Part shown: piece by piece, positions 9,612 through 64,000 of the stretch
Layout: each line of letters begins with the position of its first letter
Numbering within the stretch: position 1 is the stretch's first letter
Source: Paramarasmius palmivorus
Taxonomy: Eukaryota; Basidiomycota; Agaricomycetes; Agaricales; Marasmiaceae
Direction of reading: 5' to 3'
NCBI GenBank assembly: GCA_037176845.1
Contig: JAYKXP010000168.1
Coordinates: 1 to 64,000 of the forward strand
Length of the DNA: 64,000 nt
Position numbers and translations under genes: made by a program
Notes under the pieces: generated by a model
What the model saw: only the letters and a program-made list of their open reading frames with translations
Database searches by the model: none
Told to the model about the DNA's origin: nothing

Positions 9612-9626
9612 TTTTTTTTTAATTTA

Positions 9627-23285: not shown

Positions 23286-24290
23286 TTAAAAAGGTACTCA
23301 ATCAAAAGCTACTAAAATTGAAGGTACTAATATTATTAAAGCTACAGCTACTGGTAAAAGATTTAATCAACATAGATCAATTAATTGATCATATCTTAAT
23401 CTAGGTAAGGTAGCTCTAACCAGAACAAATAAGAAACAAGGGAAACAAGTTTTTAATCCTAAAATAATTGATTGTAAATTAATAACAGAATCATTTACAA
23501 ATATTTCAGGCATATTATAACCTCCAAAAAATAAAATTGAAGTTATACTACTAAATAAAACAATAGATGAATATTCTCCAAGGAAGAAAAATACAAAAGG
23601 CACAGAACTGTGTTCAGTCATAAACCCTGACACTAATTCAGATTCAGCCTCTTGTAGATCAAAGGGTGTTCTCGAAGTTTCTGCTAGCACAGCTATAAAA
23701 TAGAAAAGGAAAACAGGAAATAATGGTATTATAAATCAAATAGCTTGTTGAATTTCAATTATAGTTGTGAAATTAAATGAACCTGTTAAAAATATGATAA
23801 TAAGAATTGCTGAACTTAAAATTAATTCATAAGAAATCATAGCTGCTGTACTTCTTAATGACCCTAAAAAAGCATATTTAGAATTAGCACTTCATCCTGC
23901 AAATAATATACCATAAACTCCTAACGAAGATAAGGCTAATGAATATAAAACACCTAGAGATAGATCAGTAATCGCTAGTCCTTTACCAAAAGGAATTATA
24001 GCTCAACCTAATAAACTAAATACTAATGTAGAAATTGGTGCTAAAAAAAATAAAACTTTATTAGAATGAGAAGGAATAATAGTTTCCTTAAGAATTAATT
24101 TTAGAGCATCAGAGAATGGTTGTAATAATCCATAATAACCTACTATATTAGGTCCTACTCGTCTCTGGTGAGCAGCTAATTGTTTTCTTTCTATAATAGT
24201 CATGAAAGCAACAGCTAATAAAATTGGTAAAATTACACTTAATACATCAATTAAATTAAAAATTAAAGTATAAATTGAAAAGTTTAACAT
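23286..24290 (-). CDS. nad1: NADH dehydrogenase subunit 1
   Basis: Complex I membrane subunit, 334 residues, no intron. Contains [20 protein letters not shown], the matrix-loop [21 protein letters not shown] and the C-terminal FDWVPF. Several Trp are UGA (for example FAGW, CW and FDW). The ATG at 24290 follows a leader that is duplicated almost perfectly at 45316-45476. Confidence 0.98.
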
Positions 24291-24449
24291 TTCTTCGAAG
24301 AAAATTGTGAAAATAAGCTTTATATTTATTTATATAATAAATAACTTATTAAATAAATAAACAATGTATTTTAAATACGCAATAATAGTAATTTAAAAGA
24401 CTATTTTTAAGAATAATAATTAAGAAAAAAAATTGTTAAAATTATATGA
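24288..24449 (-). promoter_or_regulatory. nad1 5' leader (source copy)
   Basis: About 160 bp immediately upstream of and including the nad1 start. It is repeated with only a few differences upstream of the accessory ORF at 44839-45318. Duplication including the start codon implies that it carries the promoter and/or translational leader. Confidence 0.65.
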
Positions 24450-26481: not shown

Positions 26482-27426
26482 TTATAAAGATTGGAGTCCT
26501 AGCAATACATATTTAATAAACATAATATTAAAAGCTGAGAATAGCCAGATCATAAACATACCTATATAAAAAAAGAGTAAATTACTCTTTCGTCAATAGG
26601 ACAAAATATTAACTAATTTTATTCGAATTTTGTTCCCATATTTATACTTAGATAACCAATCAAAATTATAATTTAAATCAGATAACGATTTTAAAATTAG
26701 AAAAATTATACATAAATTTATAATTATGAAAATACAAATGTATAAATTAAAACTATTTTGAAGCACATCAACTAAGTGAGCTAAATAAGTTTCATTTTCT
26801 AAAGGACAACTAGGTTCAACATTAGATGAAGATTCAAAATTATCACCTCGTTTAGTAATATCTACGTGATCTGCTGGTTGAGTTTTACTTCAAGTACTGG
26901 CTCGTCAAATACTTCTACTATCTTCAAAGGTGAAATAACTAGCACCACCACCAGCTAGAATAAAAGCCATTTTAAAAGTAGGAGGTAAAGAAACAGCTGA
27001 TGATTTAAAAACAGAGGCAGATGCCTTAATTCCGGCGCTAAAGACACTGGCACCTCCTAAAAAAGTTATTCCATCCCAAGCTTTATCCATATCTATCCTT
27101 ATATCAGAAAGTTTTAAAGTTTTGTTATCATCAATATAAATAGTATTTGAAAATAAATCACTAATAGTATAAACATAAAATTCTATATAGTAATATAACA
27201 ATATAACTAAGAACAAAAAAAATAAAAATTTGTTAATAGATTTCAAAGTAATGTATAAAAAATCAAGTCTTTTTATATAATAATATATAAAATATAAAAA
27301 GATACCGAATAAACTACCAAGCAAAAATGTAATATGAGCATAGTTATAATTTATTATATACGTTAAAAAACAAAAATTAATTATAATTTTATAAAACAGT
27401 CTAAATAAAAAATTAATTTTTTTCAT
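26482..27426 (-). CDS. Accessory membrane protein, family A
   Basis: 314 residues under code 4 (ATG 27426, UAA 26482, Trp mostly UGA). Architecture: two N-terminal hydrophobic segments; a short hydrophilic loop (IYIDDNKTLKLSDIRID); a Gly/Ala/Ser-rich hydrophobic hairpin (FLGGASVFSAGIKASASVF, then PPTFKMAFILAGGGASYF); a hydrophilic part; and a C-terminal pair of membrane helices flanking a charged loop that ends in YWRKSN. The same order is seen in the ORFs at 42967-44007 and 62231-63316. It starts 31 nt after the nad3 stop, so it may ride on the nad2-nad3 transcript, although an ACCCTCA element lies between them. Function unknown. Confidence 0.75.
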
Positions 27427-30922: not shown

Positions 30923-31886
30923 TTCCCCTATTTTTATTATTTATCATATTCTTTTAAAAACTACTAAATTTATTATTATCCAAATCTTATAATAAAAATT
31001 AGTAATAAACCAGCACATCTTGGTAATATTTTACAATACTCCTTTTTGCGCTTCTTCCTATCATCCGAACGGAGAAGAAGCATGGAGGAGCATGAGCCAA
31101 AATATATTAGTGAACGGATTGGCTTTTCTAAATCCTGCATACTGGCTAATAAGTGCATTTGAGCGGAGAAGAGAAAAAAATTTAAATTTTAATAATCTTT
31201 CATTATTATTTTTACAGCTTAATAATAAAACTTATAATAACTGAGAAAATGTTGCTGGCCAAACAAAGATCCTTCTTCATCTTATTTTTGCTTTACTTTT
31301 GCGGGGATAAACGTATTATTATTCTACTTCTTCTACAACTCTTCGCTTCGCTAACTATGCTACTTTTATAAAGCTAAGCCAAAATTTTAGAATTGAAAAA
31401 GCTCTATACAACATTAACTGTTATCAATTAAGAAGTTGTCTATATTATTAAGTATATCCTTTTGCTGCTATACATAAAATATACACAGATAAAAGAAAGA
31501 AAGATGTTTGCTGTGCAGTTCTTAAAGAAAAGGACCGCGGCCATTCCTTAAGAAATTAAGCTATTGTGAGTGCTGCATGCTCCGCAAGAAGGATGCTGCA
31601 GAGTAGATCTAAACATTTAATTTTAAGTTAACTCTAAACCAATTCGTATTGGTATAACTAGGAAGCCATACTTGCTTGCATATGTATTTAGTAATATACT
31701 GTATTTAGTAAGCTCTAATTAAAACACGCACTGCGAAGCAAGTGAGCGTATAATATGCTAATAAATAATTTTTTTATAGTATTATTCTGCGTTATTCCCC
31801 CCCCCCCCTACGTTGTAGTGCTTTCATAGGACGGTGTAAACCTAGGTATCTAACCTGTGTTAAAAAAAAGGTGAGTGCTCGATAGA
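30923..31886. other. Spacer downstream of atp6
   Basis: About 1 kb with GC clusters (31055-31100 of the cctatcatccgaacggag family, 31569-31612 duplicated at 33006-33049) and a run of twelve C at 31797-31808. No gene. Confidence 0.45.
31569..31612. repeat. 44-bp direct repeat, copy 1
   Basis: Identical to 33006-33049. The two copies flank the atp6 transcription unit. Confidence 0.8.
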
Positions 31887-31947: not shown

Positions 31948-32715
31948 TTAGTGTAAATCTATTGCGTCTTTAAGGTATGAACATACTAATAATGTTAGAA
32001 CGAAACTTTGGATGAAAGAAACTGCTATTTCTAATCCAATTAATCCTAAGAAAATAGTAAATGGTATTAAAGTTAAAATTGCAACTATTACACTACTTGA
32101 AAATAATTTATATAAGAATGTTGATAATATTTTTAATAGAGTGTGTCCAGCTGTAAGGTTAGCAAATAATCGAACTCCTAAAGAGATTGCTCTAGCAAAA
32201 TAACTAACTAATTCTATTAAAACTATTAAAGGAACTAGTGCTAATGGTGTTCCTGAAGGTATAAAATAAGAGAAGAATTTTAATTTATGAATTGATAAAG
32301 ATAAAATTGTAACTCCCATAAATATAGTTACAGAAAAACCTAAAGTAACTATTACACTAGCATTAACTGCAAATGAATAAGGTATATTAGAAATTAAATT
32401 TCCAATTAATACATAAAAAAATATTGAATAAACAAAAGGTAAATATACTTCATTTAATGAACCTATTTGATCTTTAACCATTGTTCCTAAACTTTGATAT
32501 GATGATTCAAAAGCTATAGACCATTTAGAAGGTATTAATTTAGAATCATTGTTACCATATAAATGTAATCCTAAAATTACAAATAATGTTAGTAATGTAT
32601 ATAAACCTAAATTTGTTAAGCTTAAATTAAAAAAACCTAAAATAGGAGCATTAAATCCTATCAAACTGTTTACTTCAAATTGACTTAATGGAGATAAAAT
32701 AAATAATTGAGACAT
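31948..32715 (-). CDS. atp6: ATP synthase subunit a (Atp6)
   Basis: Fo proton-channel subunit, 255 residues. The essential Arg region (LGVRLFANLTAGHTLLKIL) and the C-terminal FIQSFVLTLLVCSYLKDAI are intact. Preceded by a long structured leader duplicated twice elsewhere (60325-60600 and 63330-63530). Confidence 0.98.
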   Translation of the reverse strand: MSQLFILSPLSQFEVNSLIGFNAPILGFFNLSLTNLGLYTLLTLFVILGLHLYGNNDSKLIPSKWSIAFESSYQSLGTMVKDQIGSLNEVYLPFVYSIFFYVLIGNLISNIPYSFAVNASVIVTLGFSVTIFMGVTILSLSIHKLKFFSYFIPSGTPLALVPLIVLIELVSYFARAISLGVRLFANLTAGHTLLKILSTFLYKLFSSSVIVAILTLIPFTIFLGLIGLEIAVSFIQSFVLTLLVCSYLKDAIDLH

Positions 32716-32796
32716 TTTAATAAATAAAAAATATTGGTGTGTCTATAATATAATTTTTGTTTCTTCAACACTTTAGATCTTACGCTACTCTTATTT

Positions 32797-32854
32797 TTGC
32801 TTTGCTGCTTTGCTGCTTTGCTGCTTTGCTGCTTTGCTGCTTTGCTGCTTTGCA
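32797..32854. repeat. tttgctgc tandem octamer
   Basis: About seven units in the atp6 leader. The two copied leaders lack it, so it expanded after or outside the duplications. Confidence 0.9.
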
Positions 32855-33005
32855 AGAAGTTGAAGGTAATACCTCCTACTGCGGAGTAAGGAGCAAGAAA
32901 AAAGTGTGAATGCTTAGACAACGCTGCTACTTCTTCGAAGTGAATGCTGCTAAGCGGCCTTAAATACTATTAAACTAAGTACTATTACTAATTCTCCATT
33001 TAAAT

Positions 33006-33049
33006 AGTGCTGCATGCTCCGCAAGAAGGATGCTGCAGAGTAGATCTAA
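33006..33049. repeat. 44-bp direct repeat, copy 2
   Basis: Identical to 31569-31612; lies between nad6 and atp6. Confidence 0.8.
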
Positions 33050-33159
33050 GAACTTAGAATTGTAGTAAAAAAGGAAAGGTTATTTCATCTAAGAAATTTG
33101 ATTTTTAAGTTTTAATATTAAATTTATTTATTTAAACAATTAGTTTATATTAGTCTCAA

Positions 33160-35624: not shown

Positions 35625-35729
35625 TAATGCTCCTTAAAAGAACGCTTCCATCCTTAATTATATTTGCATGCTGCAAACGCTGGAGTAGATGCCTATTGGT
35701 CTCTCAGAACGGGGAAGAGGAATGTTGCT
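35625..35729. repeat. 105-bp direct repeat, copy 1
   Basis: Identical to 36373-36477. The two copies flank trnK and trnQ, 748 bp apart, a configuration open to recombinational excision of that segment. Confidence 0.9.
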
Positions 35730-36372: not shown

Positions 36373-36477
36373 TAATGCTCCTTAAAAGAACGCTTCCATC
36401 CTTAATTATATTTGCATGCTGCAAACGCTGGAGTAGATGCCTATTGGTCTCTCAGAACGGGGAAGAGGAATGTTGCT
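36373..36477. repeat. 105-bp direct repeat, copy 2
   Basis: Identical to 35625-35729. Confidence 0.9.
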
Positions 36478-41483: not shown

Positions 41484-42251
41484 TTATTGAACATAAATTA
41501 ATATATTTATAAATATAATTGTAGATGAAACAATAAAAATTAAGAAAAAATCTATTAATGAATAATATAATTGAAATTTACGTCTCAACTGAATAAATCT
41601 ACTTATTTTAGGATATTTTATTTCTAATTGAAGTCTATCAATTAATATATTTCCATAAAATATAATAAATAATGATATTAAAGAAATTATTATAACAATA
41701 CAACCTGTAACATTTACTATAGCAACACATTGATCAAATGTTAAAGAAGATAAAAATTCTGATATATCAGATAAATATTTTGAAGTGTTACCACTACCTT
41801 TATTTATTTCTTCTAATATCTTACTTAATTCATTACCGAATTTTTGTCCAGAATTAGCTAATATATCGCCTTTTTCCTTAAATTCTTTAACAAGTTTAAC
41901 TAATTCTTCAGAAGTTAATTTTTCTAAAGCATCAGGGTCATAAAAACGATTACCTAGTTCTTTATAAACATCCAAATCGCCTTTGAATTCCTCATTAGCT
42001 TTATTAATCATATCCATATGTTTCTGATTTATATTAGTCTTAATTATTACTTCGTATTGGTCATCAATTTTACGTTGTCATAATTCCTGTCTTACAGAAT
42101 GTTCTTGTATATTATTATTTAAATTATTTATTGTTTGTTCATGATTACTCATATTTTTTTTAGCCTTTACTCCATTAATAGTGTTGAATACACCCATTGT
42201 AAAAGTAGTTAAAGTCATTCCTTGAAAAAATCTTGTTAATTTATTATTCAT
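41484..42251 (-). CDS. Accessory membrane protein in a nad3-like position
   Basis: 255 residues (one UGA Trp), starting MNNKLTRFFQGMTLTTF. A mildly hydrophobic Gly/Thr-rich N-terminus (about residues 9-28) is followed by a long Asn/Gln/Glu/Lys-rich, probably coiled or helical, soluble region, and then two C-terminal membrane helices around the charged loop LEIKYPKISRFIQLRRKF. That C-terminal design matches family B loops (NKYPRISKFI). Its ATG overlaps the stop of the shrunken nad2 copy just as nad3 follows nad2, and even the first residues MNN match Nad3. Function unknown. Confidence 0.75.
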
Positions 42252-42696
42252 TATTAAATAATTGTTGTGTTGTATTTAAGATTAAAGAAGGTATATAATA
42301 TATAGTATAATAATCATCTATTCTAACTTGATTTGTACGAGAAAGTAGATAAAGATATAAAATATGTGAATGTGTATTAATATTGGATAATCCTTTATAT
42401 AAAGATTGTAATTCTATACTTAAGATACTATTTAATAAAGTATATAAATATAAAATTTTATGTAATAAAAAACATTCTAAATTTTGAGAACGTGTAGTAA
42501 TATTGAATAATCCATTATATATCCCTATTCCTGAAAAACTATCTAAATTATAAATAATATTATAACTTAATAGACCAGAAAATAGTAAAATTATAACTGA
42601 TATTCTATGATAAAAACCCGTAGATAATTTACCATTTTTGTATAATAAAAATTTGAAATATGATAATAATTTTCTCATTCTTTTAATAATTATCAT
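42244..42696 (-). pseudogene. Shrunken, chimeric nad2 copy
   Basis: 150-codon frame built from nad2 pieces joined by internal deletions: a new start MIIIKRMRKLLSYFKFLLYK, then [19 protein letters not shown] and [15 protein letters not shown] (nad2 residues about 22-65), [17 protein letters not shown], and the nad2 C-terminal PSLILNTTQ. It cannot be a functional Nad2. The open frame and its overlap with the next ORF suggest it is kept as a translated leader that feeds ribosomes to the ORF at 41484-42251. Confidence 0.75.
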
Positions 42697-42899
42697 CTTT
42701 AATAATAATATTAGGGCATATAGGTATTTAATGGTTTTTATAGTTTAGAAGATCGTAGAAAATTTTAAATTAAAAAACAAAAAATATAATTTTAAAAAGA
42801 TAATTGAATTTCACAGAATTTAGTAAATTTTAGATGTTTTAATTATAATAAATACAGAAAATTAAGAGTTTTAGGAAGAATCTATATTTAATAAAATAA

Positions 42900-42966: not shown

Positions 42967-44007
42967 CTATTTTTTTTTAAAGCTTATATATTGGTGTAAA
43001 TCAATATCTAAAGACTCATAAGGGATTTGATTAGTGATTAATCAATATAAAGCATGACATAAACCAAATAAACCTATAAAAATTAAAACTGGTAAATAAA
43101 ATAAAGTAAGTTTACTTAAAAAAGCTTGATAATTAACATAAAGAGAAATAAATTTATTGTTAAATTTCTTAATTATTCTATCTTTATTTAATAAAAATAT
43201 TACATTAAAAATAAATACTATAAATAAGAAGACTATACTAATAGCCAAAATAAGAAGAATAACTTCAATAAACATTCGTTGACCGATAAGATCATCGAAG
43301 AATCCTTCAACATATACAGGATTTAATAATTGCATAGTTTCTTTAAAAATTAAATCAATAAACTTAGTAATTAAAGAAGAAATATCTAAATCTAAAGAAG
43401 GTAAAAAATTATTAGCGCTTTTTTCAACCACATCTTTTACAGCTGTGTCTACAGCACTTTGATTGGCAGATTTCAATGCTTCAGAAACAAAACTATCCAT
43501 AGTAGTCTTAGATACATTATTAACCGTATCTATACTAGGTCAAGAACCTGTTCTCTTATACTCTGAGTAACTTCACATTAGTCTATTAAAACCTACTGAA
43601 TTTTCTATAGCAGAATGATAAGTAATAGTACTTGCACTAACACCACTAGCACCTAAAGCACCTAATACTCTTAATCTAGGAGAGATACCAGGCATTTTAC
43701 TTAAAGCCATGAATGTGGCTAATCCTGTACCTACTATACTGATGCTTTGGGGAACCCCACTAGGTCATCATCTTACAGGATCTACCTTATTTGGTAAATC
43801 AGTAGACTCCCCATTAGGTATCACATAAGATACTAAATCAACACCGAAAATCTGAGATAAATATGAAAAAATCCCTGTAACGAATGAAAAAATATTAATA
43901 AAAATATAAAATAAAATAATAAATTTGAAAATATTAAATAAATATATAGATAATTTATTTAATATTTTAATTCCAGAATTAGGAATTTTAATTTTAAAAT
44001 TGTTCAT
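42967..44007 (-). CDS. Accessory membrane protein, family A
   Basis: 346 residues from the ATG at 44007 (UGA Trp at six sites), stop UAG. Order of parts: N-terminal hydrophobic segments (IYLFNIFKFIILFYIFINI); a Gly-rich hydrophobic pair (SISIVGTGLATFMAL, then KMPGISPRLRVLGALGASG); a Ser/Lys/Asp-rich soluble region (residues about 150-235); then two membrane helices with the loop LNKDRIIKKFNNKFI between them, and a tail ending FKKK. The signature K-x-P-G-x-S-P-R...G-A-x-G aligns with KHSMGFLPKWGIISLGGAG of the ORF at 62231. It begins MNN inside a short upstream ORF (43994-44206). Function unknown. Confidence 0.75.
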
Positions 44008-44838: not shown

Positions 44839-45318
44839 CTAATATTTACCAGTTGTTTTATAAATAAATAATAAAGAAAAGAACAATAATAAAAATAAAC
44901 AAATTAGACAAATTATAATTTCAATACTAAAATAAATTAAACTGAATTTCTTATATCTGTTGATTAATTTACTTAATAGAGGATATTTACTTTCATAATT
45001 ACTTTTTTGAATTAATAAGTAAGCTATTATATAACCTAGAATATTTAAAAAACTTAATAGACATATAAGACTTATTATAAATATCCCCCAAGAATATTGT
45101 GTTAATACATTATTAGTATCGTTTACATTTATATCTAAATAACTTAAAATTAATGGTAAAGAATAAGAATATCTAAAATTACTATTTTTCATTATTTTTG
45201 TCATTATTAAGATCTTCTTTTTATGTAATTCTTTGATAAATTGAATGTAAGTTATAACTGAAGCACCACCGGTAAAACCCGCTGCAAATGATTTCCAATT
45301 TACAATTTTGTTAAACAT
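44839..45318 (-). CDS. Accessory membrane protein, family B, under a nad1 leader
   Basis: 159 residues. A short Gly-rich N-terminus (FAAGFTGGASVITY), a basic linker, the family B junction SLPLILSYLDINVNDTNN, then helix-loop-helix with loop LIQKSNYESKYPLLSKLI and a final membrane helix. Closest relatives in the window are the ORFs at 59628 and 61141. Its ATG sits at the same point of a nad1 leader copy (45316-45476) as the nad1 ATG does, so it should be expressed with nad1-like timing. Function unknown. Confidence 0.78.
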   Translation of the reverse strand: MFNKIVNWKSFAAGFTGGASVITYIQFIKELHKKKILIMTKIMKNSNFRYSYSLPLILSYLDINVNDTNNVLTQYSWGIFIISLICLLSFLNILGYIIAYLLIQKSNYESKYPLLSKLINRYKKFSLIYFSIEIIICLICLFLLLFFSLLFIYKTTGKY

Positions 45319-45476
45319 TTCTTCTAAGAAAATTGTGAAAATAAGCTTTATATTTATTTAAATAATAAATAACTTATTAAATAAATAAACAATGTATTTT
45401 AAATACGCAAGAAAGAATATTTAAAAGACTATTTTTAAGAATAATAATTAAGAAAAAAATGTTAAAATTATATGAT
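45316..45476 (-). promoter_or_regulatory. Copied nad1 5' leader
   Basis: Matches 24288-24449 over about 160 bp with few differences, including the first ATG and the gapped A run. Positions shared with nad1 end abruptly at about 45477. Confidence 0.85.
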
Positions 45477-45800
45477 TAGTTTAAAGTTGGTATTTAGCCT
45501 GTACTCCGTTCTTAAAAAGAAAAAGATACTTGAAAACGATATCTGTCCCTGTCTGTACTCCGTTCTTAAAAATAAATTTTATATTACTTCTATATGATAT
45601 AATAGATACTTAAATCTAAGTATATAAAGAATTAGTATAGCGATGCGAGATTATGCTACTATATTTAGTCTACATCTTCACTATTAAAATATCAATTTAT
45701 TTAGTTTTAATGAGTAGAGTAAAAATTTAACTTTAGTTAAAGAAAACACTGTAACAATAAAAAATTTTAAAAATAAAAATTATCCTAAAAGCTTATTTAC
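45477..45800. other. Spacer with a short tandem motif
   Basis: The 19-mer ctgtactccgttcttaaaa occurs twice (about 45500 and 45552). No gene. Confidence 0.45.
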
Positions 45801-46569
45801 TTATTTTATATTTCTTTTAATAAAAATTAATTTATCTAAAAGATTAAAAATTTTACTTTTTATTTCCTTATTATCTTCTTGACACATAGATTCATTACGT
45901 TGTATACTCTTTATTCATTCTTCAGCTTCATTCTTATTAATAACACCCTTTTCTTCAAATGAATTAACAATTGCATTTTCTTCTTTATAAAGATCTAATT
46001 CTTTACCGTTAAAATGTAAACAGGCATCCTGATATTTCTTTTTGTGTATCTGTATCAGGTAAAATTATATAAGCTAATTAGGGAAAATAAAAAAATATAG
46101 GTTCTAAACCTTTAGCTTTTCTAAGTTCATCAATACCAGCCATTCCTCCGAAAATTACTCCCTTCCTTTGGAACACTGTTTCACAAAACCCCTTACTACA
46201 TCAAATTATTTTTGCAGCTAAAGAAGCTAATCTATCTAAAGGCTAATTTCTTACATCTAACTCCTCACTCTTAAAAACTTTAATCATATATTTAATTCTA
46301 TGATAAGTGATAAAAATTTGATAAATACTAAACATAATAAATAAAATTACACAAATTACTAAAGAAATAAAGTATAACTTTTCATCCCCTAAAAAAATTA
46401 GTCTATTAGTAATTAAGAGTATAACACTTATACCTCCTAAAACTCTAAAAACTCTAACAATTGGATTTTGAATAAACTGTAATATATTTTTTGGTAAAGT
46501 AGGTGTATTATAACCTTTCTTTATTCCTGTAAGTACACTAGAAAAAAATTCATTTGTTGTATAAAACAA
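45801..46569 (-). pseudogene. Decayed accessory membrane-protein gene
   Basis: The first 108 codons are open (46569-46243): an N-terminal Tyr/Thr/Lys segment, two membrane helices and a tail ending KSEELDVRN. After an in-frame UAG, the same frame continues PLDRLASLAAKIIWCSKGF, FGGMAGIDELRKAKGLEPIF up to a UAA near 46080; after a one-base shift near 46030 it runs on as DACLHFNGKELDLYKEENAI to a final UAA at 45801. Two stops and a shift make inactivation likely. The hydrophobic Gly-containing middle and charged tail place it near family A. The tail is also duplicated at 26071-26121. Confidence 0.65.
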
Positions 46570-47078
46570 GCACTTTTGCTAATTAAATACTATAGTAGTT
46601 AACAATTCTTTTTTCCTTGCTTCTTTGAAGAAGTTTTAGGAAATGAATATTTTAAGCCATATATAACATAAATTAAATTCTTATATATGGATGCGCAGCT
46701 GCGCAGCTGCGCAGCCCTAGTTACTTTAAAATAAGTATACCACCCTGTAAGGCTCCAGGCTCTTCCTAAGGAAGAATAGATTTCACATTAAACAGTTGGC
46801 CGCAGGAGGAGTAGATTACCTCTAATAAAGGTAATCAGATAGATAACTTATTTCAATCTCAACAGGAATATTGTTTTATAATTTCTAAATATTTAGAAAA
46901 GAAATTATTTTTAAAATTTTTCAAATTTCTTCTCTTCTTTTTTTTAAGATAATTTTTATTTATTAAACTTATCAAAATAATATTACTTTCATATTTATTT
47001 GTGTTAAACGATAATAAAAATTTTTATGTAAGCGCTAAGCAGCGAACGCAGTAAACACACTAAACGCTACAAGCTTCA
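46570..47078. other. Spacer downstream of atp9
   Basis: No gene. GC clusters at 46690-46715 (gctgcgcagctgcgcagc) and 46740-46810. Confidence 0.4.
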
Positions 47079-47135: not shown

Positions 47136-47357
47136 TTATGAGTATAATAATAAGAAGGCCACCATTAATGCAAATAATCCTGTAGCTTCCGCTAAAGCGA
47201 AACCTAAAATTGCATAAGTGAATAATTGACCTCTAATTTGAGGGTTTCTAGCTGTAGATGATATTAATGAAGAAAAGATCACACCGATCCCAACTCCAGC
47301 TCCTATTAGACCTGAACATGCTAAACCTGCTCCTATGTATTTTGCAGCAACTAACAT
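47136..47357 (-). CDS. atp9: ATP synthase subunit c (Atp9)
   Basis: Fo c-ring subunit, 73 residues, two membrane helices. [19 protein letters not shown] with the RNP loop and [13 protein letters not shown] with the proton-binding Glu are intact. Both the gene's 5' half and its leader have been copied, separately, to 60945-61069 and about 61810-61955. Confidence 0.98.
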
Positions 47358-47379
47358 TTTTCAAATATATTGTTTTTTC

Positions 47380-47535
47380 CTGAATTCTACTTCTTAAAAT
47401 TGAATGAATTGAAGGATATTTATATATTATTAAATTAATTAAAATATATCGTAGCATACTACGCCTTCTCTAATTATTAGAATATAGTATTAAGAATAAA
47501 ATAATGTGAATAATTAGGAAAATTGAAAAAAGATA
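47380..47535 (-). promoter_or_regulatory. atp9 5' leader (source copy)
   Basis: Segment starting just upstream of the atp9 ATG; contains the sense string GAAGGCGTAGTATGCTACG and is repeated at about 61810-61955. Confidence 0.6.
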
Positions 47536-55356: not shown

Positions 55357-55440
55357 TAGTTTAAATATTTTGTTGTTAAACTTAGTAGTTTTTTGAAAAA
55401 TGAATTTTTTTGTTTTAAAAAAAAACAAATAAACTATAAA
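55357..55440 (-). promoter_or_regulatory. nad4L 5' leader (source copy)
   Basis: A/T-rich leader with the sense order TTATAGTTTATTTG, A/T runs, TCAAAAAACTA. The same series precedes the accessory ORF at 55580-55999. Confidence 0.5.
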
Positions 55441-55579
55441 AAAAAATAAGAATTACTCTAACTAGAGCTAAATTTTTTATATGCTATGCTTTCTGCGTTA
55501 GCACATAAAGTAATAAAAAATTATACCTAAAATACAAATATTTAATGAAAAGGATCCATTAAATTAATAGAATAACTTT

Positions 55580-55999
55580 CTAATATGTAGTTTTATTATT
55601 ATTATCAACACTTTGAACTTTAACTAGATCTTTAGCCTCTTTAACATTATCATCACCAGCGCATAAAATTTCATTAATTATATTTAATCCAAAATAACTT
55701 GAAATATAAATACATATAATAAAACATATACTATATATTACCAATTTTTGTATAATTCTGACTAATATATATCTAGAAAATTTAAAGTTGTTTAAAATAA
55801 AATTAGAAATAATGAAAGAAATTACAAAACTAATAATCATACTTATAAGACCAATAATTGATAAATCATTTACAAATCTATAAAAAATTACAATTACAAA
55901 ACTATACGAAATTAATTCTAAAAATTTAGATTTTATTAAAACCAAATATTGGTATATGAGATATTTAATTTTATTTAAAATTAAAGAAATATTTTTCAT
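55580..55999 (-). CDS. Accessory membrane protein under a nad4L-like leader
   Basis: 139 residues. A basic N-terminus (MKNISLILNKIKYLIYQYL), about four hydrophobic segments and a hydrophilic tail (AGDDNVKEAKDLVKVQSVDN). It resembles the N-terminal membrane half of family A without the Gly-rich and C-terminal parts. It lies between a nad4L leader copy (56010-56085) and nad4L, with no 3' element before nad4L, so it is probably co-transcribed with nad4L-nad5. Function unknown. Confidence 0.68.
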   Translation of the reverse strand: MKNISLILNKIKYLIYQYLVLIKSKFLELISYSFVIVIFYRFVNDLSIIGLISMIISFVISFIISNFILNNFKFSRYILVRIIQKLVIYSICFIICIYISSYFGLNIINEILCAGDDNVKEAKDLVKVQSVDNNNKTTY

Positions 56000-56009
56000 T
56001 TTTGTTATT

Positions 56010-56085
56010 TTTTACAGTTAAACTTAATAGTTTTTTGAAAAATTAATTTTTTTTTTTAATTAACAAATAAACTATAAAAAAAATA
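56010..56085 (-). promoter_or_regulatory. Copied nad4L 5' leader
   Basis: Shares TTATAGTTTATTTGTTAA-like, poly-A/T and TTTTTCAAAAAACTA blocks with 55381-55440. Low complexity weakens the case, but the order and the position just upstream of an ORF agree. Confidence 0.55.
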
Positions 56086-56340
56086 GGAGGATTACAGCTA
56101 CTACTTCCTTATGCAGTAGCTCTCTTTAGCTTTAGCACCCGAACGGATGATTTAGCCGGAGGAAACAACTGAACGGAGCGAACAGAGCGAAGAGAGCGAA
56201 CGGAGCCGTGTTAACACACTAACGCAGAAGTGGGATGCAGGTGAAGCAGAAGATATAATTTATATAAAATTTAGAATGGCCAGTTTACTATGGCTGCTTT
56301 GAAGACAAAAAAATAGCTATAAGAAATAATAAAAAAAAAT
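56086..56340. other. GC-cluster patch upstream of the nad4L leader copy
   Basis: Contains a short tandem of gagcgaac-type units at 56168-56205. A variant 3' element (sense AACCCTTATT) lies at about 56339-56346, just after the stop of the ORF at 56397. Confidence 0.45.
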
Positions 56341-56396
56341 AAGGGTTAATATAATATTTAATTAAATAAAGGCTTAATGTAAATTAGATATTAATA

Positions 56397-56837
56397 CTAA
56401 AAAAAATAAATTAACGATAAAAAATTAATAATAAATATCACACTATACAATAAAATTAATTTTAGATAGAATTTTACAAAAGAATTTTTTTTTTCTTCTT
56501 GCTTTTGCTCTAGCTCTTCCGCTCTACCTATGGAAATAGGTAGTCCCCGCTTTCATTCAGATTCTCCCATCCCTCCTACGGAGGGCCGGGAGGAGAAATC
56601 ACCTATAGTATGAGTATGAGTTGGAGTATGAGTAGGAGTAGAAATATTAATACTATTTTTTAATTCTAATAATCAATTTTTAATTTTATTAGGATAGTAA
56701 ATAGGAATTATATAATTTTTATTATAATAGAACATTATTATTAAGTATAATTTAACAATATAGTAAATAACCATTATTAAACTCATAATACAACAATATT
56801 TAATAAAATAAATTGATAAACTATTAAAATTTTGCAT
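56397..56837 (-). CDS. Accessory membrane protein with GC cluster inside its frame
   Basis: 146 residues, one or two UGA Trp. An N-terminal helix (CCIMSLIMVIYYIVKLYLII), a Tyr/Asn linker, a THTPTHTHT tract, a GC-rich middle (SSRPSVGGMGESEWKRGLP, DNA 56495-56600) that is recognisably palindromic GC-cluster DNA, then a C-terminal helix (LKLILLYSVIFIINFLSLIY). The cluster is traversed in frame. It begins 63 nt after the cox3 stop and may be co-transcribed with cox3. Its upstream text (ATAACACACAACAATTATTTA) resembles the nad2-end leader. Function unknown. Confidence 0.6.
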
Positions 56838-56899
56838 TTTTTATAAATAATTGTTGTGTGTTATTTTTAAACTAAGAAATTTTTATTTAAATAATATAA

Positions 56900-57724
56900 C
56901 TAATTGCTTCCCCAGAAGTATACTGCCACAAATAGGAATAATCATACAACGTCAACAAAGTGTCAATAAAGTATTCCAGTTTCAACACCTATATGTCCTT
57001 GTTTAGAAACATTATAGTTAATAATTCTAATGAAACCAACAATAATAAAGATAGTTCCTATAATTACGTGGAACCCGTGTAGACCTGTAGAGGCATAAAA
57101 TGTAGTTCCAAATACACTATCTGCTATTGTAAATTGTGAATCTGAGTATTCAATATATTGAAATATAGTAAATACTACAGCTAATACGATAGTAATAAAT
57201 AAACTATTTATTGTATGTTTTCTTTTTCCAGCTATAAAAGCATGGTGAGCATAAGTGATAAATGCTCCACTAGATAATAATAAGAAAGTATTAAGTAATG
57301 GAATAGCAAAAGGATCTAAAGGTGTTATACCTACAGGAGGTCATTGTCCTCCTATTTCAATACTAGGTACTATACTTGAGTGAAAGTAAGCTCAAAATAC
57401 AGAAATAAAAGCAAATACTTCACTAATTACGAAAAGTATAAATCCTAGCATTAAACCATTTTTAACTTCTTTTGTGTGGTGACCTAAAAAACTTCCCTCA
57501 GTATTAACATCTCCTAATCAAAAGTACATTATAGATAATGTTAATAATAATCCTAAACTTAATAATAATTCTCCATTATAAAATCCGTGTATTGATAACA
57601 CTGCTCCTATTGCACTAAAGAACAGGGATCAACTTATTAAAAAAGGTCAAGGTGATTGATCTACTAAATGATATGAATGAGATTGAAATTTAGATTTATT
57701 GTTTATTATTTGTAAATTTGTCAT
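56900..57724 (-). CDS. cox3: Cytochrome c oxidase subunit 3
   Basis: Complex IV subunit, 274 residues, no intron. HSYHLVDQSPWPFLISW at the start, EGSFLGHHTKEVKNGLMLGF, TGLHGFHVIIGTIFI and the C-terminal YWHFVDVVWLFLFVAVYFWG are present. Trp is mostly UGA in the N-terminal third. Confidence 0.98.
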
Positions 57725-58387
57725 TATTATAAAATAATTATATTTCCTTTTCGGAAGATATAGACACTAACATGACGATTCTATTAAGAAATCTAATAAT
57801 TATGTTTTAAATATAGCAAGCCAATTATTACTTATACTAATTTATAATTATTATTATTAATTCTATCCAGTATCAAAAATCTAATATTAATACAAGATAA
57901 ATTAAAGATTGTCAATAAAATCCAAGTACATAAATATGTACTAGTTAGTTGCTTAAAAAAAAAGTCTAAAATTTTATTTTAGACCTACTCTTTTAGTTTT
58001 TATTCAACATGACTTAAAAAAAAGTTTAGCTAATAATAATATTTACTTCGGTGCAAATCAAGAAAATAATATTAATAATATTATTTTGGGTTGCTACGCG
58101 CTACGATGAGGGTTAAAAAAAATATTTTAATTTAAAATGTAAAATTAAAATATTAATAGTGGTTATTTACTAATTAGAATTATTACTATTAATTATATAT
58201 AATTATACTAGCAATAAAAAGATTCAGTATAGACAAGTTTTTTTTAACTTTTAATTATAAAAAGAGGATTTTAGTTAAACCACTAAAAATTTTTTTAACC
58301 TAGTTTTTTATAGAAAAGAAAATAATTAATAACAATCTATATTATTGTATAAATGAAAAACATGAGAGGACTAAGATTTACCAATAG
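57725..58387. other. cox3 leader region
   Basis: About 660 nt with no gene; holds the 3' element of the upstream chimeric ORF at 58107. Confidence 0.45.
58107..58113 (-). terminator. ACCCTCA 3' element
   Basis: Sense TTTTTAACCCTCATCGTAG, about 275 nt past the stop of the chimeric ORF. Confidence 0.5.
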
Positions 58388-59434
58388 TTAAATAAATACA
58401 TAATAAAGAGAATACAATATTAAAATAATTAAATAAAATACTAATTCAGATTTACATCATTCTTTATAATAATTAAAAAGTTCTTTATTTTTACTAATTT
58501 GTACTAAATAATTAATAAATCTTTTAAAAATATTAGGTAAGGAATTTGGAATTAAAATATTGCCTTTTTTTTCTATAATATTAAATAAATACAATATAAT
58601 ACCACTTATAACTATAGAAATCAATAACATAAAAAATATAAATATACTTAAATAATTAATATAATACAATAAACTAATTCCATCAGACATAAAGAATATT
58701 AATATTAGTGTTACAATAATTAGAACTCATACTTTTACTTTTTTAAGTAAAAAGAATAAACCTAAAAAACTTGATTTACCTAGTCCGTAGGAGGAGGAAG
58801 AATTATTATCACTATTTGATTCTGACATATTATTTATTAAATCTAAAAAATTTAAATTTATAATATTGAAAGTTATACCAAAAAAATTTAAGACTGTGAA
58901 AATGATAATTGAAAATATAAAGATAATTATTATTTTAGAAAAGTAAGATATTGTATTAAATTTAAAATAATATTTTTTTATTAAAAGATTTTTTGAATGT
59001 TTAATAATGTAGTGATCTATTAATATTACAATTATAAATGATGTCATGAATATTAATCTAAATGTAGATAAATTAATAGAAAATATATTTTCCTTCGAAG
59101 ATGGAATAAAACTAAATTTAGTTACGGATGATAATATATTTGTATTAACACTAATATCTGTTAATACTTTACAATGTGTAGTAATATTGAATAATCCACT
59201 ATATATCCCTATTCCTGAAAAACTATCTAAATTATAAATACTATTATAACTTAATAGACCAGAAAATAGTAAAATTATAGCTGATATTCTATGATAAAAA
59301 TCCTCAGATAATTTACCATTTTTGTATAATAAAAATTTGAAATATGATAATAATTTTCTCATTCTTTTAATAATTATCATCTTTAATAATAATATTAGGG
59401 CATATAGGTAGGGTAAAAGTAGGGTGGGCGTCAA
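58388..59434 (-). CDS. Chimeric nad2/accessory membrane protein
   Basis: 348 residues (two UGA Trp). The N-terminus (about residues 18-90: [47 protein letters not shown]) is nad2 sequence with the same replaced start as the copy at 42696; after residue 90 it switches to unrelated accessory sequence. That part has several membrane helices, an Asn/Ser-rich linker (MSESNSDNNSSSSYG), and a C-terminal helix-loop-helix with charged loop IEKKGNILIPNSLPNIFKRF, like families A and B. The nad2-derived DNA (59171-59323) is almost identical to nad2 itself, so the fusion is recent or kept identical by conversion. Function unknown. Confidence 0.75.
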
Positions 59435-59554
59435 CGTTTATGGTTAATTTTAGTACAGAATGGTGAATTTTTAATTGTGCGTAATTGCAGATAGTTTTAG
59501 ATTTTATTTTATAATTATGTATATGACTAATAAGGTTGAGTGGGGATTAAAAAA

Positions 59555-59561
59555 TGAGGGT
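59555..59561 (-). terminator. ACCCTCA 3' element
   Basis: Sense TTTTTATACCCTCATTTTTT, about 65 nt past the stop of the ORF at 59628-60308. Confidence 0.5.
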
Positions 59562-59627
59562 ATAAAAATTCTATTTGATTTAAACACCTATGGTTAAAAA
59601 TTTTATCTGGATATGTAAAAATAATAA

Positions 59628-60308
59628 TTAAGATTTGATATTAGAATAAAGAATTAAAAAAGAGAATATAATAAGTATGCTTAAACAAATAAAACAAAGA
59701 ACAACTTCAATTATATATAACAAAATTGTACCTTTTTTATACCTATTTATAAATTTACTAATTCGAGGATATTTATTTTCATAGTTACCCTTCTGAATTA
59801 AATAATAGGTAATTGAATAACCAACTATATTTACAAGACAGAAAAATGAAACCAAACTTAAAAAGAAAACACTATATGAAAAATGCATAAAATTACTATC
59901 ACTATCACTAATCTGAATATCTAAGTTAGATATTATTCAAGGGAAAATGAAAACATGTTTTAAACTATTTACCTTATTTTTTATTTTCATTAGATGGTTC
60001 ATTACTTGTTTTGTTATCTTCAACTTTTTTATCTTCTTTTTCTTATCTTTATCATCATTATTATCTGATCCAGAACTAGAACCATTATCAGGTTTGAAAT
60101 TATTATAAAGATTAGCAGCTGCTGCAATGGTTATTATACCTCTACTTCCTATATCAAATGCTTTTTCAATACCTTTTTTACCGGATAATAAGATTATTAA
60201 ACCTAAATTTAATAATATAATACCAATAACAAAAAATAAATCTAAATTATTTAATTCTAGAAAATGAGATATAAAATGAGAGTTTAATTGAGCATTAGAG
60301 AAGATCAT
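59628..60308 (-). CDS. Accessory membrane protein, family B, under an atp6 leader
   Basis: 226 residues, joined through one UGA Trp. N-terminal helix (LFFVIGIILLNLGLIILL), Gly/Ala-rich segment (GSRGIITIAAAANLY), charged linker (SDNNDDKDKKKKIKKLK), junction FPWIISNLDIQISDSDSN, then two membrane helices around the loop LIQKGNYENKYPRISKFI. It aligns over its full length with the ORF at 61141-61785. Upstream lies a 275-bp copy of the atp6 leader. Function unknown. Confidence 0.8.
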
Positions 60309-60324
60309 TAAAATTAATTAAAAA

Positions 60325-60600
60325 TAATTGATGTGTCTATAATATAATTTTTGTTTCTTCACACCTTAGTTCTTAAACTATTTTTCTATTAATAGAAAAT
60401 ACACTGATCTTATGATCCGTAGATGTTAGAGATATAGTTTATCCTATATTTAGGAAGAGATACTATAATAGTGTGAATGCTTAACCAAAGCAGTGTCATT
60501 GATTAAGCGGCCTTAATTACTATTTAAATAAGTAAAAAAGGAAAGGTTATTTCATTTAAGAAATTTGATTTTTAAGTTTTAATTATTTAATTATTAATTG
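60325..60600 (-). promoter_or_regulatory. Copied atp6 5' leader, copy 1
   Basis: Matches 32716-33110 in order: TATAATATAATTTTTGTTTC block (plus strand), the gtgtgaatgctta...ttaagcggcc hairpin, and the ggaaaggttatttcatttaag block. The hairpin stem differs from atp6 by a compensated pair. Confidence 0.85.
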
Positions 60601-60833
60601 TGAGATTTTTTTTCCATTCTTTTAATCCGAACGGAGAGGGTTAATTATCATTCATTATCATATTTAATAATATTAGGGCATATAGGCAAGGATATAGGTA
60701 GGGGAGTAGAGGAGAGGTGAAGAAGATAGGTTTTTATGTTTTGTTTTTACACATATTTAAGAATTTTGATTTGTATGCAATTACAACTAATGAGCATATT
60801 TAATTTTAAAGGTATGTATATGACTAATAAGAA

Positions 60834-60840
60834 TGAGGGT
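60834..60840 (-). terminator. ACCCTCA 3' element
   Basis: Sense GCACCCTCATTCTTATTAG; with its flank (TATGTATATGACTAATAAGA on the plus strand) it is a near copy of the block at 62170-62198. Confidence 0.5.
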
Positions 60841-60944
60841 GCATATAAATTATTATTTTTAAAATAATTTTTATTAGTTAGGAGACGAGAATTTAGTTTA
60901 AAGTTATAATTGACGCACATGAAACTATGATAACTATTTTCTCA

Positions 60945-61069
60945 TTTGAGGGTTTCTAGCTGTAGATAATATTAATGAAGAAAAGATCACACCGATCCCA
61001 ACTCCAGCTCCTATTAAACCTGAACATGCTAAACCTGCTTTAAGAATTTAACTTAACAGCAACTAACAT
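60945..61069 (-). pseudogene. atp9 5'-half fragment
   Basis: Copy of the first about 40 codons of atp9 (47238-47357). After MLVA the sequence diverges and hits a stop, then matches the [26 protein letters not shown] part closely until the ARNP loop. It cannot yield Atp9. It sits between the family B ORF and its 3' element, at the junction of two leader cassettes. Confidence 0.85.
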
Positions 61070-61140
61070 TTTTCATATTATAAATTTGATAAATTGAGGT
61101 AGTAAATCACTATTAATAAGTGAATTTTATTTAAGATAAA

Positions 61141-61785
61141 CTAGTTTTTACCAATATTAGAATAAAGAAATGCAAATGAAAAGATACTTAATAATAATAA
61201 ACAAGTAAAGCAAAGAAAAGCTTCAATAACATAAAAAAATAAAGTGCTATTTTTAAAATAATTAATGAATTTACTAAGTTGAGGATATCTTGTTTCATAA
61301 TTACCTTTTTGAATAAGATAATATGTAATTGAACAACCTAGTACATTTATAAAGCAAATTAAACCTATAAAACTTAATAAAAATATACCAAAAGATAATT
61401 GAGTCATGTTAGAATCTGATTCACTAATATTAATATTAGATATAACTCAAGGTAATATGAATGCATAATTCAAATTTTTTTTATTTATTTTCATTAGATT
61501 TACTTTCTTCTTTTTCACCTCATCTTTTTTATTATCATCTTCCTTTTTATTATCATTGCTAGAACTAGATCTGGAACTATTTTTACTCTTATCGAATCAA
61601 ATTTTATATATTATAGTTCCTCCAGCACCTATTCCTACAACTTTTTGTACTTCACCTAATATTTTACTAGTTTTACCTGAAAATAATATTAAAATACTTA
61701 AAGAAATAACTACAATTATATAATTAAAATCTAGTAAAGTTAATATATTTTCAATTAAATTAAATTGAGAATTTACGAAGACCAC
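61141..61785 (-). CDS. Accessory membrane protein, family B, under an atp9 leader
   Basis: 214 residues (two UGA Trp). N-terminal helix (YIIVVISLSILILFSG), Gly-rich segment (VVGIGAGGTIIYKIW), Ser/Asp/Lys linker (SSSSNDNKKEDDNKKDEVKK), junction ILPWVISNINISESDSN, then two membrane helices flanking LIQKGNYETRYPQLSKFI. A clear paralog of 59628-60308. Preceded by a copied atp9 leader. Function unknown. Confidence 0.8.
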
Positions 61786-61809
61786 TTTTAATCAAAAATA
61801 AGTTTCCCT

Positions 61810-61955
61810 TTGATTCTACTTCTTAAAATTGAATGAATTGAAGGATGTTTATATATCTTAATTTAGGATATATCGTAGCATACTACACCTTCTCTAATTA
61901 TTAGAATATAGTATTAAGAATAAAATAATGTGAATTCTAGGGAATTGAAAAAAGG
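61810..61955 (-). promoter_or_regulatory. Copied atp9 5' leader
   Basis: Matches about 47380-47535 over roughly 145 bp, including the ttctacttcttaaaattgaa and ctctaattattagaatatag strings (plus strand). Confidence 0.85.
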
Positions 61956-62191
61956 ATTATTTTGAGAGGGTAATATTATTTTAAGTAAATAATGATTACT
62001 ATAGATAACTATTCTTTTAATTATCATTCATTATCATCTTTAATAATATTAGGGGATATAGATAGGGAAGAAGAGAGGTGGGAGGAGGTGTTTATGGTTT
62101 GTTGTAGTACAGAATTAGGGTTTTTATAATGTGTGTAATTGCTACTAGAGAGGGTATTTTATTTTATAGTTATGTATATGACTAATAAGAA

Positions 62192-62198
62192 TGAGGGT
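62192..62198 (-). terminator. ACCCTCA 3' element, extended form
   Basis: Sense TTTTCATACGCACCCTCATT, about 35 nt past the stop of the family A ORF. Confidence 0.55.
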
Positions 62199-62230
62199 GC
62201 GTATGAAAACATTTAAACTTTAATTAAATT

Positions 62231-63316
62231 TTATGAAAATAAAAATCTTAGTCTATTTAAAGCTAGTAATGTCGTCAAAGAAAAAGATAATAATAAGGTT
62301 GTAATTAAAAAGATTCAAACACTATTACTTTTTTGTCACGTATTAACATATCTAAATAATAATGTATTAATGAATCGACCTAACAAATATTTATTTAAAA
62401 ATTTTATTTCTATAGATTTAGAATTAACTAACAGTTTACATAATAAAATAATAATTAAGATTATTATAAGACAAATTTTAATACATTCTAATAACAAACT
62501 ATTGTTAAGCATTTCTAGTATAAATAATTCATTAGAATCTAAAGGACATTTTATGAAAGAATCTAAATTTAATTTATAATCAGGCTCTGTTAAAGGTGAA
62601 GGTTTTGTTCAATCAACACTTACTTTTTCAACTTCCTTAGTAACTGATAAACCAGCTTTTCATTCTTGTTTATCTAATAAGAATTTTAAGCTCATAGGAT
62701 TTTTATTACTTAAAGAATCTGGTTTTATTTCAAATTGAGAGGAATTAAAAGCCAATTTAAAAGCATTACTTTCTGATTCACTTTTTGTTTTAACCATTTC
62801 TTTAGCTTCAATTTGAGTTGGACCAGCAACTATAATTTCACCACTATTATTAACAGTAGGTGGTCAAAAATTAGATAATATTCTATATTGTAATGATAAT
62901 CCTGCTCCACCTAAAGATATAATACCTCATTTAGGTAGAAATCCCATACTATGTTTAGAAATTAGCATAGCTGCAATACGTGCTCCAGCTATAAAAGTAA
63001 ATGTTTGACTAAGGTTATCGGATAAAACCCTGATTAATTCTCCTTTAATTATAACGGTCTGATTATTAATTATAACATTGTAATCTGAAAATATTATATT
63101 ATTGTGCATATATAAATTAACAAATATTAATGATGTAATAAGAATAGATAAATAAACAAAACATGATAAATTTATACTATTTAAAATATTATTGAATTTT
63201 ACTTTGATATAACTACCAAAGAAATCTTTCAAAATTAATATGAAAACTACATAATGTAGTACTACGGATGATAAAATGATAAACAATTTAAAAAATAAAA
63301 AATAAAATAAAGTCAT
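62231..63316 (-). CDS. Accessory membrane protein, family A, under an atp6 leader
   Basis: 361 residues under code 4 (six UGA Trp). Two N-terminal membrane regions; a short loop (IINNQTVIIKGELIRV); the Gly/Ala-rich hairpin FIAGARIAAMLISKHSMGFL then KWGIISLGGAGLSLQYR; a hydrophilic middle (about residues 145-260, KTKSESESN, EWKAGLSVTKEVEKV); then a C-terminal membrane hairpin with a basic loop and YVNTWQKSNSVWIF. The W-x-KSN element is shared with YWRKSN of the ORF at 26482. A copied atp6 leader lies just upstream. Function unknown. Confidence 0.78.
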
Positions 63317-63329
63317 TAAATTAATAATA

Positions 63330-63530
63330 ATAATTGGTGTATCTATAATATAATTTTTGTTTCTTCAACACTTCACTTAAATTATTATAAAGTGTGAATG
63401 CTTAGACAACTCAGTTACTTATTTGAAGTTGAAGTTGCTAAGCGGCCTTAATTACAAGTTATACTTATAAAAAGGAAAGGTTATTTCATCTAAGAAATTT
63501 AAATTTAAAGTTTTAATTATTGATTTATTA
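63330..63530 (-). promoter_or_regulatory. Copied atp6 5' leader, copy 2
   Basis: Same three blocks as the atp6 leader, with the gtgtgaatgcttag...ctaagcggcc hairpin intact and the spacer shortened. Confidence 0.85.
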
Positions 63531-63562
63531 ATTGTGATTTTTTCCATTCTTTTAATATCTAA

Positions 63563-64000
63563 TTATTCATTATCAAATGGTGATGGAAGTGGAGATAAAT
63601 CTTTATCTTCTAATTCTTTTAATCTTTCTCTACTAATTCGTAACAATATTTTTTTAGGTTCTGGAGAATCCGGTTTTATAAGTATAGATTCCGGAGAATT
63701 AGGTAATGAATCAGATGCATAGGATGAAGAAACATTAGGTTTTATTGTTATGGAAGAGCTAGTAGAAGTTGGAGAACTATTACTATTTAAATCTATTAAA
63801 TCTGAAGCTGAACTAGTAGATGATGTGGGACTAGAATCAGGACTTTTAAAGAATTTTTTATAATTTTCCTCATTTAAATTAGAAGAACTAGTAGAAGTAG
63901 GTGAACTATCAGTATTTACTCCTTTAGAAGTTTTTTCTGAAGATATATAAGATAAAATTGAATCTTTATAATAATAAAGTACAGCACCTATCACAACTAT
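63563..64000 (-). CDS. Accessory Ser/Pro-rich protein, 5' end outside the window
   Basis: At least 145 residues; the frame is open to the window edge (begins IVVIGAVLYYYKDS), so the start is missing. A hydrophobic segment at the visible N-terminus is followed by a low-complexity tail with repeats of SSPTSTSSS and ends ISRERLKELEDKDLSPLPSP plus FDNE. Probably the soluble C-terminal tail of another accessory membrane protein. Function unknown. Confidence 0.6.
   Translation of the reverse strand: MVVIGAVLYYYKDSILSYISSEKTSKGVNTDSSPTSTSSSNLNEENYKKFFKSPDSSPTSSTSSASDLIDLNSNSSPTSTSSSITIKPNVSSSYASDSLPNSPESILIKPDSPEPKKILLRISRERLKELEDKDLSPLPSPFDNE

Follow-up and report, generated by a model that had tools for sequence, protein, structure and literature searches.

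In the mitochondrial DNA of the mushroom Paramarasmius palmivorus, long accessory open reading frames (ORFs) stood directly behind copies of the 5' leaders of respiratory genes. The DNA analysed (the window) comprised bases 1–64,000 of the 91,159-base contig JAYKXP010000168.1, from an assembly of 68.3 Mb. The comparison of leaders, coding sequences and trailers suggested, with a probability of roughly 0.6, that the copied leaders supply expression signals to modular accessory-ORF cassettes in a recombining mitogenome; use of the copies in expression is likely. To our knowledge, how new mitochondrial genes acquire signals of this kind has hardly been studied. In budding yeast, mitochondrial translation is governed by mRNA-specific activators acting on 5' leaders, as described in passages of PMC3978653. 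Leader capture would offer a route for the expression and retention of unexplained ORFs in mushroom mitogenomes.

An earlier reading of the sequence without database searches (the sequence-only reading) had named most of these ORFs. All of the accessory ORFs it named exist on the minus strand when read with genetic code 4. Because of the minus-strand orientation, the coordinates it gave as starts, which also serve as ORF names here, are 3' ends, and the leaders lie at higher coordinates (Table 1). The 250 nucleotides (nt) upstream of 13 accessory ORFs were scored against the 450 nt upstream of 14 core genes. As control, each leader was shuffled 60 times and scored over all 14 core leaders; the best control score was at most 51. 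Six of the 13 accessory leaders exceeded the controls, each matching one particular core gene with a local score of 69–275: nad1 for o44839 (275), atp9 for o61141 (216), nad4L for o55580 (105), atp6 for o62231 (93) and o59628 (91), and nad3 for o41484 (69). The leader of o55580 scored equally against nad5, because nad4L and its leader sit within the upstream stretch of nad5. The sequence upstream of nad3 that was matched by the o41484 leader is the 3' end of nad2. For cox1 as donor, no match was found in the 1100 nt upstream (scores 22–36).

The sequence-only reading had placed o62231, o61141, o59628 and o55580 behind copied atp6, atp9, atp6 and nad4L leaders, and self-blastn recovered every pair. 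The E values were 5e-68 for the nad1 pair, 7e-47 for the atp9 pair and 1e-17 for the nad4L pair (87% identity). The atp6 spacer (32694–33132) matched in six pieces within 63295–63533 and 60306–60599, with 83–93% identity and E values of 5e-4 to 3e-20 each. The start codons of the atp6-type copies were in register with that of atp6 in the alignments; o44839 likewise began, as had been claimed, at the ATG position of its nad1 leader copy. In the nad4L and atp9 pairs, homology stopped 17–27 nt before the start codon. In the matched ORFs, leader homology thus broke off no more than about 30 nt from the start codon.

The best evidence for leader capture is that related coding sequences carry different leaders. 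The core of family A consists of o59628, o61141 and o44839 (blastp 2e-35 to 2e-57), and the C-terminal domain of o41484 places it there too (hhalign probability 81.5%, E 1.2e-5; reversed control 0.3%). These four paralogues have four different upstream pieces, from atp6, atp9, nad1 and nad2/nad3. They form a natural leader-swap set, open to direct RNA mapping. Homology between the paralogues o59628 and o61141 extends from codon 1, and at that point their leaders switch from atp6 to atp9. The start of o61141 is probably GTG 61785, not ATG 61494, because the GTG aligns with codon 1 of o59628. A GTG start is reported for cox1 of Pleurotus ostreatus in passages of PMC12842788. The synonymous divergence of the paralogues is near 1, compared with about 5% divergence of the nad1 leader copy. 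This suggests that the leaders were joined to coding sequences that had already diverged, unless leader similarity is maintained by constraint or conversion.

In appearance the copied pieces are intercistronic spacers. Between the end of o63563 and the atp6 copy that precedes o62231 there are about 30 nt, and the matching part of the real spacer has the same distance from the end of nad6. The o62231 copy is without both GC-rich stretches of the present atp6 locus; the o59628 copy is without the first, and the second is replaced by unrelated sequence. The two copies have a further 23–27 nt in common that are absent from atp6, so one was probably derived from the other. ORF o61141 is flanked by the copied atp9 leader and by a disrupted copy of the beginning of the atp9 gene. 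Exact direct repeats were also seen in the window (31569–31612 = 33006–33049; 35625–35729 = 36373–36477; 10152–10199 = 16326–16373), and one copy of the first lies inside the atp6 leader as a GC-rich insert.

The structure of the atp6 leader was investigated with RNAalifold, using alignments of at most three sequences each from this one mitogenome. Two stems were found in the atp6 leader and its copies, enclosing sequences of greatly different length. Over the three copies, 58 of 60 cells were paired, and two pairs had changed on both sides; slid control structures on the same leaders paired at 26–54%. The o59628 hairpin kept nine of its 10 pairs through seven changes (Monte Carlo P 0.011). 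Against shuffled sequences, the three atp6-type hairpins had stability z scores of −1.26, −1.93 and −3.14. By these comparisons both captured copies retain the atp6-leader hairpin, and one of them shows compensatory changes. This is moderate, not decisive, evidence that the copied leaders still work.

The coding sequences of family A were also examined. Differences at codon positions 1, 2 and 3 among the three close paralogues were 73/42/94 (o59628 against o61141), 59/49/79 and 60/45/68. The ratio of non-synonymous to synonymous divergence (dN/dS) was 0.44, 0.44 and 0.49 over the whole sequences, and 0.34, 0.32 and 0.66 over the last 105 codons; with dS at 0.85–1.14, these ratios are rough only. 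The pattern points to purifying selection on the family A coding sequences. For each of the 13 accessory ORFs, the probability that the frame stayed open by chance was at most 2e-5.

The sequence-only reading had taken the ORFs for a single proliferating family, which did not hold. The accessory ORFs form at least two families. Family B consists of o62231 and o26482 (blastp 5e-8), and profile comparison linked families A and B neither to each other nor to other ORFs; outside the families, the best forward match reached 4.9% and the best reversed control 2.1%. Weak blastp links such as o11907/o58388 (2e-4) were not accepted, because the search was run without composition correction and unrelated core genes matched too. 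Hydropathy analysis gave one to five hydrophobic or transmembrane (TM) segments in each of the 12 ORFs tested of the 13. No Pfam or NCBIfam family reached cut-off in the 10 accessory ORFs tested. In PDB sequence searches with o59628 and o62231, no match had an E value below 0.14, and their predicted structures were of low confidence (mean predicted local distance difference test scores of 52.8 and 36.1). Within the organism's own genome, o59628 and o62231 matched this contig alone, in a search of limited sensitivity that missed o26482. No relatives were found among viral contigs with A1, A2 and cox3 as queries; among genome contigs, cox3 matched bacterial records only, among the best 80 of 582 loci. 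The plasmid-type family B DNA polymerase (PF03175) had no match in the genome, in a search whose control was also silent.

The use of nad2 by o58388 and o41484, claimed earlier, was borne out. Self-blastn found nad2 pieces of 84–97% identity within 58388–59380 and 42244–42696. In o58388 the nad2 codons are fused in frame, and o41484 follows a mini-nad2 (o42244). The mini-nad2 is an in-frame mosaic of N-terminal, middle and C-terminal pieces of nad2, open over 150 codons through several deletions (chance about 3.5e-6 by its own composition). The nad3 copy extends 9 nt into o41484, and both proteins begin with MNN. The nad2 stop and the nad3 start overlap, which is paralleled by the 8-nt overlap between the end of the mini-nad2 and the start of o41484.

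The ends of the cassettes were shared as well. A 29-nt block stands behind o62231, o61141, o59628 and o41484, and a repeated junction provides the ATG of the nad2-fusion ORFs o58388 (at 59373–59424) and o42244 (at 42689–42726). Family B o62231 and family A o59628 have common leader and trailer types, so leaders, coding sequences and trailers have been shuffled independently. The heptamer ACCCTCA had been proposed to close each cassette. It occurs 19 times in the window, against 2.5 expected, always on the minus strand. When the listed genes are set aside but their introns are kept, 21 copies lie on the minus and one on the plus strand, with 1.15 expected. Thirteen of these 21 lie within 200 nt behind the end of a gene, ORF or rRNA; random placement gave a mean of 1.97 and a maximum of 10, and 13 was reached in none of 20,000 trials. 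The element follows eight of the 13 accessory ORFs, 39–307 nt past the stop; of two sites behind o61141, one falls within the atp9 fragment and is there by coincidence of coding. The element also lies within 150 nt behind nad3, atp6, nad4, atp9, rns (within 12 nt, at 50236) and cox1, 543 nt behind nad1 and 372 nt behind nad5. The reading as a cassette boundary was rejected because core genes and rns carry the element too. ACCCTCA behaves like a strand-specific candidate 3'-end signal. No copy was found behind nad6, nad4L, cox3, o63563, o56397 or o55580, each of which precedes a gene of a likely common transcript. None was found behind rps3 or rnl, and behind cox2 and cob the next copy is 1.2–2.0 kb away, so the gene-end rule is incomplete.

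From these features the following mode of expression can be proposed. Coding sequences are joined, near the start codon, to duplicated core-gene intercistronic spacers holding the 5' leader. The long transcript would be cut, probably at ACCCTCA and at tRNAs, and the accessory mRNA would then carry the leader of atp6, atp9, nad1 or nad4L. The machinery that initiates on the core leader would in this way make the accessory membrane protein as well. For o41484, the mini-nad2 would bring ribosomes to the overlapping start, the role that nad2 has for nad3. The sequence-only reading had held that the ORFs gain their signals in this way; the copying is seen directly, and the supply of translational signals is plausible in view of the differing paralogue leaders, the hairpin, the junctions near start codons and the purifying selection. 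By analogy with budding yeast, we infer that basidiomycetes may use leader-dependent activation and that nuclear translational activators may recognise the copies. It is a tentative extension that synthesis of the accessory proteins, too, depends on the nuclear activators of Atp6, Atp9 or Nad1, that paralogues swapped leaders repeatedly, and that the membrane proteins are thereby placed at respiratory assembly sites, as assembly regulators or selfish genes.

Several results weigh against a role in expression. Six of the 13 leaders matched no core leader (o58388, o42967, o26482, o56397, o63563 and o11907), and that of o42244 was marginal (score 50 against a shuffled maximum of 49) and was not counted. 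The covariation in the atp6 leader was modest, being reached by 54 of 500 shuffles; three other stem tests were not significant (P 0.14, 0.18 and 0.29), and two atp9-leader stretches had z scores of only −0.07 and −0.95. In one of three family A pairs, dN/dS of the C-terminal 105 codons was as high as 0.66. Identity was 89.6% for the copied atp9 leader and 90.4% for the dead atp9 coding fragment next to it; the leader is conserved no better, so recency alone could explain the leader identity. Clustered differences had been weighed as evidence that the copied leaders are constrained; this argument was dropped because the dead fragment shows equal clustering.

An alternative is a neutral by-product, in which repeat-mediated recombination brought ORFs and duplicated spacers together and left the leader copies as recent traces with no role in expression. 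Repeats are abundant in the mitogenome, the dead atp9 fragment is preserved as well as the copied atp9 leader, a stop-broken ORF-like stretch lies at about 45700–46700, and six of 13 accessory ORFs manage without a captured leader. Neutral joining would have to account, however, for junctions near start codons in six cases, for four leaders on four paralogues, for the purifying selection on family A and for an atp6-type hairpin that still pairs despite changes, and it is considered rather unlikely. Less probable still is a mobile ORF that inserts at the border of leader and coding sequence upstream of core starts, the copy restoring the host leader and ORF expression being incidental. The position of o55580 between two nad4L leaders, and of o61141 between an atp9 leader and an atp9 5' coding fragment, would fit such insertion, but no endonuclease or integrase family reached cut-off in the 10 ORFs tested, and no atp6 or nad1 coding remnant was found behind o59628, o62231 or o44839 (tblastn, E 1e-3). 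Selfish genes resembling those of cytoplasmic male sterility (CMS), spreading in a nucleus–mitochondrion conflict through hijacked respiratory expression signals, would suit accessory proteins that lack a known domain, have hydrophobic segments and are encoded behind respiratory leaders, as well as the Heterobasidion parviporum intergenic mitochondrial ORF linked to mitonuclear growth effects (passages of PMC10512249), and are very improbable as the explanation.

Supply of expression signals by copied leaders has a partial precedent in Heterobasidion. In PMC10234125, Himmelstrand et al. (2023) described core-gene 5' ends (PA_nad2, PA_cox3 and PA_atp8) and the 5' ends of two uORFs. These partial genes precede cox2 and intergenic ORFs, of which almost all have TM regions; uORF9 adjoins a partial nad2, and the authors proposed a role in expression. 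Core-gene 5' parts likewise lie directly upstream of intergenic ORFs here (nad2 at o58388 and o42244/o41484). In contrast to the Heterobasidion copies as described there, most copies here are 5' leaders ending near the start, from atp6, atp9, nad1 and nad4L; beyond that account, paralogues bear different leaders, a mini-nad2 overlaps the next start, and the analysis took in trailers and the structure of leaders. The sequence-only reading knew of no described fungal system. This must be qualified for core-gene 5' ends upstream of ORFs, while the bare-leader form was not found described. A literature search, outside which most subscription papers lay, yielded no recognised fungal leader capture besides PMC10234125 among the matches listed, nor any bare leaders ending at the start, differing paralogue leaders or conserved leader structure; passages of PMC8581569, PMC8672057 and PMC12842788 likewise contained no case of fungal mitochondrial ORFs capturing leaders. 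The arrangement itself is real and, judged by its sequence, is a sharper variant of the Heterobasidion arrangement already described.

Other systems share single features. Passages of PMC4201751 (Himmelstrand et al., 2014) describe Agaricomycete ncORFs as intergenic and often clustered, with TM segments in five of the six of H. irregulare. The present ORFs resemble such Agaricomycete ncORFs and uORFs in being long and intergenic, with TM segments and no known domain, and differ from those described there in forming two paralogue families with copied leaders. Clergeot and Olson (2021) connected mitonuclear effects on growth with indels that lie upstream of an intergenic mitochondrial ORF (passages of PMC10512249). 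The mitochondrial C-core of Schizosaccharomyces pombe acts on mRNAs and the small rRNA, according to passages of PMC4618339. ACCCTCA similarly stands behind mRNAs and rns on the coding strand; it is a sequence correlation, as opposed to the C-core, and may be independent in origin. The comparison with CMS and nucleus–mitochondrion conflict is speculation. In plant mitochondria, chimeric CMS ORFs combine novel ORFs with core-gene pieces; in the present fungus it is mainly leaders that were copied, and they are known from sequence alone.

Table 1. Positions of accessory ORFs, copied leaders and trailer elements in the window.
Feature	Position	Strand	Details
o62231	62231..63316	−	361 amino acids (aa); family B; 4 predicted TM segments (Kyte-Doolittle)
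o63563	63563..64000 in window	−	360 aa; extends to contig position 64645
o61141	61141..61785	−	214 aa counted from GTG 61785; family A
o59628	59628..60308	−	226 aa; family A
o58388	58388..59380	−	330 aa; nad2 codons about 17–68 fused in frame
o55580	55580..55999	−	139 aa; upstream of nad4L
o44839	44839..45318	−	159 aa; family A
o41484	41484..42251	−	255 aa; family A via C-terminal domain; opens with first 9 nt of nad3
o42244 (mini-nad2)	42244..42696	−	150 aa; overlaps o41484 start by 8 nt
o26482	26482..27426	−	314 aa; family B; 30 nt behind nad3; no captured leader
o42967	42967..44007	−	346 aa; no captured leader
o56397	56397..56837	−	146 aa; behind cox3; no captured leader
Captured nad6–atp6 spacer (atp6 leader) upstream of o62231	63317..63533	−	blastn, alignment, leader score
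Captured atp6 spacer upstream of o59628	60309..60626	−	blastn, alignment
Captured atp9 leader upstream of o61141	61813..61954	−	89% identity to 47384–47532
Copied nad4L leader before o55580	56017..56083	−	other copy before nad4L itself, 55375–55445
Captured nad1 leader upstream of o44839	45310..45475	−	94.7% identity to 24282–24449; start codon in register
Dead atp9 5' coding fragment behind o61141	60940..61078	−	89% identity to 47232–47366; early stop in alignment
ACCCTCA behind o62231	62192..62198	−	further copies at 59555, 60834, 58107, 44783, 42900, 41342
29-nt trailer block	62161..62189; also 41273, 59506, 60803	−	4 matches, up to 3 mismatches; 0.00 expected
Repeated cassette junction	62017..62064	−	similar near 63563, 60641–60703, 59373–59424, 42689–42726

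The ends of the contig repeat each other (window 1–12154 against contig 79014–91159, about 12.1 kb, 99.76% identity), and the molecule is therefore probably a circle of about 79.0 kb, a fungal mitogenome. Both rRNAs and 23 tRNA genes are encoded (16 in the window and seven in the rest of the contig), and the fungal core genes are present when read with code 4. Pfam confirmed nad1, nad3, nad4L, nad5, nad6, atp6, atp9 and cox3 and assigned nad2 and nad4 to the antiporter-like family only, so that all 10 core proteins tested gave a match. The names cob, cox1, cox2, rps3 and atp8, and the distinction between nad2 and nad4, are our own assignment. All core genes lie on the minus strand except atp8 (plus strand, contig 78171, outside the window). 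In rps3 (5177–7826) the window copy is frame-shifted and the other copy, in the overlapping contig end, is open over 882 aa; sequence errors in the window are therefore probable.

Minor features of the molecule were recorded as well. At contig 73645–73817, near tRNA genes, a short inverted mosaic of core-gene pieces was found, in which 90 nt of cox1 and 54 nt of cox3 are repeated exactly and a further 29 nt resemble nad5. The most over-represented heptamer outside the listed genes was CCGTTCG, with 14 copies on the minus strand of the whole circle against 0.18 expected and one on the plus strand; it is perhaps part of a mobile GC cluster. A 216-aa ORF at 11907–12557 overlaps the end of cox2 in a different frame. 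Upstream of the copied nad1 leader, the ORF-like stretch at 45700–46700 contains stops and frame changes, and its piece 45752–45831 recurs at 26047–26128.

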